Assembly (NCBI GenBank): GCA_026985675.1
Contig: JALSPZ010000203.1
Coordinates: forward strand, 1 to 34,163
DNA from: Flavobacteriales bacterium
GTDB taxonomy: Bacteria; Bacteroidota; Bacteroidia; Flavobacteriales; Flavobacteriaceae
Reading direction: 5' to 3'
DNA length: 34,163 nucleotides
Shown here: positions 3,570 to 4,912 of the stretch, piece after piece
Layout of the letters: every line of letters starts with the position of its first letter
How positions within the stretch are numbered: the stretch's first letter is position 1
Translations under genes and position numbers: made by a program
The notes under the pieces: generated by a model
The model's database searches: none
Told to the model about the DNA's origin: nothing
The model's input: the letters and a program-made list of their open reading frames with translations, nothing else

Positions 3570-4409
3570 TTAATCTTCTTTTTTATCCTCTTTAACTTCT
3601 TTTGTATCGGATTCTTCCGGTTTTTCTTCTTTTTTATCTTCTACTTTGGCGTCTTGCTCGGCTTTTTCTTTCATCATTTTAGCAGCTTCTTTTTCTGCTT
3701 TTGCTCTTTCTTTTTCTTGTTTTCTGATATCCAAACCTTCGGCAATGGCATCAGTCAAATAAGACAACACCAATTCGATGGATTTGGAAGCATCGTCGTT
3801 TGCCGGAATAGGGAAAGTTACTTTTCTTGGATCCGTATTGGTATCTACTAATGCAAATACCGGAATACCTAATTTGTTTGCTTCGGCTACCGCCACGTGT
3901 TCTTTGTTGATATCAACCACGATAAGTGCAGCAGGCAAACGTGTCATATCTACGATTGATCCTAAGTTTTTTTCGAGTTTTGCTCTTAGACGATCGGTTT
4001 GTAATCTTTCTTTTTTGGAAAGGGTTTCAAAAGTTCCGTCTTTTTTCATTTTATCGATAGCCGCCATTTTTTTTATCGCTTTACGAATGGTAACAAAATT
4101 GGTGAGCATTCCACCGGGCCATCTTTCTGCGATATAAGGCATTTTTACTTTTTGTGCTTGGTCGGCAATGATACCTTTTGCTTGTTTTTTGGTAGAAACA
4201 TATAAAATTTTTCTACCGGCCGAAGCTATTTGTTTCAAAGCTTTTTGTGCTTCTTCAATTTTAGCAGCGGTTTTATATAAATTGATGATGTGAATACCAT
4301 TTTTTTTACCATAAATATATGGTGCCATATTAGGATTCCACTTTTTGGTTAAATGTCCAAAGTGAGCTCCTGATTCTAATAGGTCTTTGATTTCTACTTT
4401 TTTTGCCAT
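3570..4409 (-). CDS. rpsB: 30S ribosomal protein S2 with charged C-terminal tail
   Basis: LLESGAHFGHLTKKWNPNMAPYIYGKKNGIHIINLYKT...VDTNTDP; acidic/basic low-complexity C-terminus. Confidence 0.97.
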   Translation of the reverse strand: MAKKVEIKDLLESGAHFGHLTKKWNPNMAPYIYGKKNGIHIINLYKTAAKIEEAQKALKQIASAGRKILYVSTKKQAKGIIADQAQKVKMPYIAERWPGGMLTNFVTIRKAIKKMAAIDKMKKDGTFETLSKKERLQTDRLRAKLEKNLGSIVDMTRLPAALIVVDINKEHVAVAEANKLGIPVFALVDTNTDPRKVTFPIPANDDASKSIELVLSYLTDAIAEGLDIRKQEKERAKAEKEAAKMMKEKAEQDAKVEDKKEEKPEESDTKEVKEDKKED

Positions 4410-4418
4410 TTTTTTAAT

Positions 4419-4490
4419 TTTAGTTTACGTTCCTTATGAAATTAGCAATGTACCATTTGGGGATACATTTGGATGCTAAACTAAACTTTC
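4419..4490 (-). ncRNA. Candidate structured leader RNA upstream of rpsB (nested inverted repeats)
   Basis: Minus strand: TTTAGTTTA(4485-4477) / TAAACTAAA(4427-4419); TTAGCA(4479-4474)/TGCTAA(4447-4442); ATGTA(4468-4464)/TACAT(4452-4448). Three co-axial perfect arms in the 116-bp rpsI-rpsB gap. Confidence 0.5.
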
Positions 4491-4525: not shown

Positions 4526-4912
4526 TTAACGTTTAGAGAATTGGAATTTCTTACGAGCTTTGGGCTGACCGTATTTTTTACGTTCTACCATTCTAGGGTC
4601 TCGTGTCAATAACTTGTCTTTTTTCAAAACAGGTTTAAATTCCGGATTTACTTCTACCAAAGCACGAGCGATACCTAATTTTAACGCATCGGCTTGTCCT
4701 GTTACACCTCCTCCTTTAATTGTAGCGGTTACATCAAATTTTCCCAATGTATCCGTAACATTAAAAGGTTCAACAACTGCTTTTTGATGAGCAGGAATAG
4801 TAAAATATTCTGTAAATTCTTTTCCGTTTACCGTTATTTTACCGGTTCCTTCATTCAAAAATACTCTTGCAACAGATGTCTTTCTTCTTCCTATTGTATG
4901 AATTGTATCCAT
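4526..4912 (-). CDS. rpsI: 30S ribosomal protein S9
   Basis: [37 protein letters not shown]...RDPRMVERKKYGQPKARKKFQFSKR. Confidence 0.97.
   Translation of the reverse strand: MDTIHTIGRRKTSVARVFLNEGTGKITVNGKEFTEYFTIPAHQKAVVEPFNVTDTLGKFDVTATIKGGGVTGQADALKLGIARALVEVNPEFKPVLKKDKLLTRDPRMVERKKYGQPKARKKFQFSKR

Follow-up and report, generated by a model that had tools for sequence, protein, structure and literature searches.

Between rpsI and rpsB on the minus strand of the window (the whole 34,163-nt stretch of DNA that was analysed) lies a gap filled with inverted repeats, in which the original prediction saw a candidate leader RNA for ribosomal protein S2 or another ribosomal protein. Ribosomal leaders as a kind, and an S2 leader in other phyla, are already known, and in E. 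coli and other gamma-proteobacteria S2 represses rpsB-tsf through such a leader (PMC10931766). The question raised by this locus is whether the repeats form an RNA structure that has been kept by evolution, and to which gene and which protein it belongs.

The rpsI-rpsB gap

The minus-strand gene order in the window was rplM, rpsI, a 116-nt gap, rpsB and tsf, and the genes around the gap were as follows.

4526..4912, minus strand: rpsI (uS9), upstream neighbour of the gap
3570..4409, minus strand: rpsB (uS2), directly downstream of the leader, with a PF00318 match in the window's genome
2719..3543, minus strand: tsf (EF-Ts), the gene after rpsB, named from its sequence

The gap was measured from the rpsI stop (4526) to the rpsB ATG (4409), and its predicted length of 116 bp was confirmed. 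The outer arm pair, TTTAGTTTA (4485-4477) / TAAACTAAA (4427-4419), and the pairs TTAGCA / TGCTAA and ATGTA / TACAT were all present on the minus strand where they had been placed, the outer and middle pairs sharing the bases TTA and the right outer arm ending 9 nt before the rpsB ATG, as predicted. The signal from the window sequence alone was modest: the 81-nt leader folded alone gave -12.8 kcal/mol (z -2.17), 5 of 200 shuffles being equally good, and folding of the whole gap as a single sequence was unremarkable (z -0.69). Because single-sequence folding was unconvincing, the question needed comparison with relatives.

Conservation and position upstream of rpsB

Upstream regions of rpsB were gathered from relatives, giving 110 Bacteroidia loci picked by similarity to the S2 of the window. 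Two nearly invariant blocks, GUUUAGYAUCYAAA and GAAYGUAAAC, were found at 104 of these loci, a proportion that differs from a class-wide frequency because the loci were chosen by that similarity. In 99/104 loci, the sequence preceding the motif could be identified as the end of rpsI (FQFSKR-stop or a close variant). The second block ends 0-21 nt 5′ of the rpsB start and the first block starts 4-144 nt past the rpsI stop, so that the element is positioned relative to rpsB, not rpsI. The element has in this respect what marks a ribosomal-protein leader, a consistent site directly upstream of a ribosomal protein gene.

An alignment of 71 sequences (A1) was used for the covariance model R1, which has 71 training rows. 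On the window copy, R1 scored 53.9 bits (E 7e-9, search over the window); as this copy is itself one of the training rows, matches outside the training set weigh more. In the 2.1-Mb genome of the window, which belongs to the family labelled f1 and has Flavobacteriales/Flavobacteriaceae MAGs as its nearest named relatives, the rpsB leader was the only R1 match, with no second copy of the motif. A search of 397 genomes from the phylum with R1 found 47 positives, none with more than a single match; all 30 matches that were fetched, many from outside the training set, were directly upstream of rpsB. The exact pattern was found in 32/397 genomes. Both counts (47 by R1 with strict filters, 32 by exact pattern) are lower bounds for presence, and the motif was recovered by direct inspection in 7/7 re-examined R1-negative genomes of f1 and f6. 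No viral contig contained the exact pattern.

Two divergent loci were also seen. Upstream of rpsB at locus L083, a long insertion replaces P4 (the apical stem, see below) and 138 nt lie between the invariant blocks. L051:1780-1862 keeps the upper part GGACUCC...GGCUACC, lacks the invariant outer blocks, scored 24.9 bits with R1, and is possibly a decaying copy of the leader.

Consensus fold and covariation

The consensus fold runs, in order, through P1 (core GUUUA/UAAAC), a 3x3 internal loop (GYA/AYG), P2 (UCY/RGA), a 3′ bulge, P3 (about ten pairs) and the apical stem P4. Between P3 and P4 stands the element GRC ... CYAC, a conserved R-Y pair that has C.C and a bulged A as its neighbours.

Pairs were counted on MAFFT alignments not fitted to the structure; the structure itself had been drawn by inspecting the same sequences. 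Changes on both sides were present in 18 of 23 pairs, and the covariation score was 0.537, compared with 0.171 for shuffles and no more than 0.122 with the partners slid. RNAalifold, run without the proposed structure as input, returned the same fold plus P2, whose Y-R pair had the composition UA:40 CG:12, with no branching. A phylogeny-preserving test was then applied to 159 sequences, with an APC-corrected G-test and 40 null alignments in which the substitutions had been replayed along the tree; 13 pairs reached E<0.05, all 13 inside the proposed helices. The invariant core pairs of P1 had no covariation signal of their own. The evidence for P1 comes from its outer pairs, of which the one next to the core covaries to a value reached by 0/40 null alignments, and from three changes of U-A to C-G. 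In the 3x3 loop, facing pyrimidines (columns 16 and 77 of the trimmed 159-sequence alignment) vary together as C.C or U.U with a near-significant E of 0.1, which suggests a non-canonical pair.

The covariation is strong and indicates an RNA structure kept by evolution; a secondary structure backed by covariation is the second mark of a ribosomal-protein leader. Relatives had been named in the original prediction as the place where the stems could fail, and there they are kept and covary. A chance palindrome is refuted by this covariation. Together with a terminator or attenuator, which would also yield inverted repeats, it has a negligible probability; the modest margin of single-sequence folding energy over shuffles is what such readings would predict, and the conservation across relatives is what they would not. 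No terminator-like site was found (0), the stem is followed by no U-run, P1 in the window being followed by an A-rich stretch, and the combination of a G+C-rich stem and a U-run that defines an intrinsic terminator or attenuator was absent.

That AGUA/GAA might form a loop E (bulged-G) was considered and dropped because Flavobacteriaceae have AGCA at this place.

The copy in the window

The location originally given for the element (4419-4490) held, and its extent was corrected to about 4414-4490. Its parts are listed below.

4414..4490 (approximate), minus strand: whole rpsB leader element, R1 match to model positions 1-89
4477..4485, minus strand: P1 5′ strand UUUAGUUUA, with the invariant core GUUUA at 4477-4481
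4419..4427, minus strand: P1 3′ strand UAAACUAAA, ending 9 nt before the rpsB ATG
4474..4476, minus strand: 5′ side of the symmetric 3x3 internal loop, GCA (consensus GYA, from the alignment)
4428..4430, minus strand: 3′ side of the internal loop, ACG (consensus AYG; A replaces Y in a minority)
4471..4473, minus strand: P2 5′ strand UCC (consensus UCY), P2 having been found unprompted by RNAalifold
4431..4433, minus strand: P2 3′ strand GGA (consensus RGA; RNAalifold)
4462..4469, minus strand: P3 5′ strand AAUGUAUC, from folding, the P3 pairs covarying
4447..4454, minus strand: P3 3′ strand GGUACAUU, likewise from folding and covarying
4455..4461, minus strand: terminal loop CCCAAAU, at the site of the GRC/CYAC element and P4 hairpin of most relatives
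4434..4446, minus strand: variable 3′-side bulge, holding GCUAA (4442-4446), a possible partner of UUAGC (4475-4479) in an alternative register

The window copy is a shortened variant, in which P1 (extended to nine pairs), the 3x3 loop, P2 and an eight-pair P3 are kept, and the apical GRC/CYAC element is lost together with P4, the 7-nt loop standing in their place. The apical part is also short in the closest relatives of the window and at a few other loci. Since the apical element is missing in the short copies, the part common to all copies is the P1-loop-P2 region.

Alternative register and upstream hairpin

Of the three stems proposed as one co-axially nested fold, the outer corresponds to P1 and the inner to P3; the middle one (UUAGC/GCUAA) excludes P1 and is a mutually exclusive register. 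It had also been proposed that two registers compete, which is so in the window, where the leader alone folds at -12.8 kcal/mol with P1 and at -11.6 kcal/mol with the alternative, a gap of 1.2 kcal/mol. In a longer context the two folds differ by 0.3 kcal/mol with the alternative slightly favoured, and P1 has a pairing probability of about 0.25 there, the alternative one of about 0.65. The competition does not extend as a general property beyond one clade. Where the Y position is C, GCUA(A) follows P3 in 41/52 sequences; where it is U, the alternative register is found in 3/49, and because of this rarity it is not a general mechanism. A two-state switch between P1 (GUUUA/UAAAC) and UUAGC/GCUAA, which could act alongside the S2 control set out below in one clade, is unlikely; the closeness in energy and the 41/52 sequences favour it, no compensatory changes for the alternative stem were found, and the association with C at Y may reflect the ancestry of a single clade. 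The alternative register may be a clade-specific second state.

The predicted hairpin AACT-gaa-AGTT upstream of P1 was rejected as part of the leader, as it is not conserved in the closest relatives. Many Flavobacteriaceae (L005-L030) have an extra, sequence-variable hairpin within about 45 nt 5′ of P1, often after GUUGU; the lineage of the window has no clear extra hairpin before P1. Without the middle stem and this hairpin, what stands of the predicted leader RNA is a conserved, covarying structure tied to rpsB.

Comparison with known leaders

Rfam 15 gave nothing relevant for the window gap at E<=10, as the original prediction of a new element implied. The t44 family (RF00127) was found in none of 20 relatives at the gathering threshold and in none of 6 at E<=3, with the E. 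coli locus as positive control (RF00127, E 1.6e-19), and R1 did not match the E. coli rpsB leader. Like t44 and the rpsB motif of Meyer et al. 2009 (PMC2704228), the present element is a structured leader just before rpsB. As in the E. coli t44 leader, its long stem is interrupted by an internal loop and capped by an apical hairpin, and GUAUC is found on the 5′ side both there and in many Bacteroidia leaders, possibly by coincidence. It differs from t44 in that neither the window gap nor the relatives searched had a relevant Rfam match. For the rpsB motif of 2009, the text of the paper names Proteobacteria, Cyanobacteria and Firmicutes, and not Bacteroidetes (PMC2704228).

L13 is a known autogenous regulator, and in the study by Eckert and Weinberg 2020 a Bacteroidia L13 leader is proposed for rplM-rpsI(-rpsB), with rplM as the first regulated gene (PMC7247131). 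The L13 leader would accordingly be expected before rplM. It comes from the same bacterial class and gene cluster as the present element, which, compared by table entry, is unlike it in lying between rpsI and rpsB. In the main-text table of 20 new leaders, only the L13 leader (from rplM) is given for this cluster (PMC7247131). The present family is thus absent from Rfam 15 and from that main-text table, and may have been described earlier in the supplementary alignments. It appears that in many Bacteroidia an essential ribosomal gene is under the control of an RNA for which Rfam 15 has no family, and the leader alignment could serve as a new annotation family.

The window's genome had no 16S match. 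With the 16S rRNA of a relative, the leader shared no word longer than shuffles did, and sequence mimicry of 16S rRNA was set aside on this weak test, which is blind to structural mimicry. The E. coli S2 operator has likewise been described as without visible similarity to 16S rRNA (PMC10931766).

Proposed mode of action

The element is read here as a cis-acting, S2-responsive translational leader of rpsB-tsf inside the rplM-rpsI-rpsB-tsf cluster, with a probability of about 0.7, the choice of S2 as ligand coming from adjacency and precedent. S2 would thus probably shut down its own production via the leader. Counted from the rpsB AUG, the 3′ strand of P1 in the window occupies positions of about -10 to -18. 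The Bacteroidia 30S subunit makes no Shine-Dalgarno (SD) contact and prefers an open, A-rich start region. Surplus S2 would bind the invariant internal-loop/P2 region (GYAUCY...GAAYG) and stabilise P1, whereupon the 30S subunit could not load and synthesis of S2 and EF-Ts would fall, tsf being controlled along with rpsB by polarity. With S2 incorporated into ribosomes, P1, which is rich in A-U pairs, would open and rpsB would be translated. In F. johnsoniae, structure near the start codon and upstream adenines are known to tune translation initiation (PMC6847099). An rpsB′-gfp reporter in the same species was indifferent to the bS21 state, which neither tests nor excludes S2. Against the reading stand the lack of sequence similarity to 16S rRNA beyond that of shuffles and the Bacteroidia families that have no such leader.

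Recognition of the structured leader by a factor other than S2, be it S9, L13, EF-Ts, S1 or a protein from outside the ribosome, is quite improbable. Both rpsI, recognised upstream in 99 of the 104 loci, and rplM lie in the same cluster, and the autoregulation by L13 and its proposed Bacteroidia leader (PMC7247131) lend this some weight. R1 found no credible second copy before rplM in the flanks of relatives, second matches elsewhere being weak and at chance level, and the position of the element after rpsI and close to the rpsB start limits direct control to rpsB-tsf.

Equally improbable is an element that needs no ligand, serving as a fixed structure for basal rpsB translation, as 3′-end protection of the rplM-rpsI message or as a processing site. 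An A-U rich P1 could open without a ligand, and some families without the element have short gaps or an SD sequence; against this, the invariant unpaired GYA and GAAYG and the conserved GRC/CYAC exceed the needs of a simple stem and suggest a binding surface.

Ribosomal protein feedback at the translation start is known from the same bacterial group, rpsU of Flavobacteriales being controlled autogenously by bS21 through an extended SD sequence and ribosomes lacking bS21, with no structured leader (PMC9976891). The motif-bearing rpsB genes are unlike rpsU in having no SD-like sequence. Ribosomes of Bacteroidia do not recognise SD sequences (PMC9976891), which makes the leader a clean system for studying translational repression where local structure governs access to the start site.

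A different rpsB leader in other classes, and loci with an SD sequence

Other classes of the same phylum have a different conserved rpsB leader with strong covariation (model R2; loci L173-L194 and L204-L223, upstream of rpsB), laid out as CAUAC-P1-CGAU-P2-GUGU-P3 ... AUGA-P1′-GUAGAAG. R2 recovered seven loci outside its alignment (E 7e-12 to 4e-7) and four more divergent ones. It matched neither the Bacteroidia loci tested nor the E. coli leader, R1 did not match the R2 loci, and the R2 leader had no relevant match in Rfam 15. The two leaders are alike in their place before rpsB and in having P1, an internal loop and stacked upper stems. The R2 leader differs in the longer 3′ side of its internal loop, in its invariant letters (CAUAC, CGAU, GUGU, AUGA, GUAGAAG) with a 5′-side GUGU bulge, and in the distance of P1 from the ATG, mostly 20-55 nt against 0-21 nt in the R1 leader. 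A tandem G.A next to P1 gives the R2 leader a kink-turn-like look.

The R1 element is absent from several Bacteroidia families, and the R1 negatives include the very small genomes of f15. SD sequences at rpsB in certain Bacteroidia have been reported by a published survey. Among 224 distinct Bacteroidia rpsB loci, 171 had the motif and no SD-like sequence, 13 had an SD-like sequence and no motif, and 40 had neither. The 13 SD-bearing loci (L170-L172, L249-L256, L262 and L268) all belong to families f17 and f23 and have an AGGAGG-type sequence in a gap of 18-21 nt; since they come from only two families, the coincidence of SD with leader absence may represent one or two events. It is a tentative and somewhat doubtful idea that modes of control have been exchanged, with one rpsB leader in the sister classes, the present one in many Bacteroidia, and in f17 and f23 the replacement of S2 feedback on a structure by control that uses an SD sequence and the bS21/bS18 pocket. 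Such an exchange is testable, since SD-like sequences are missing from the rpsB genes with the motif and present in two families without it.
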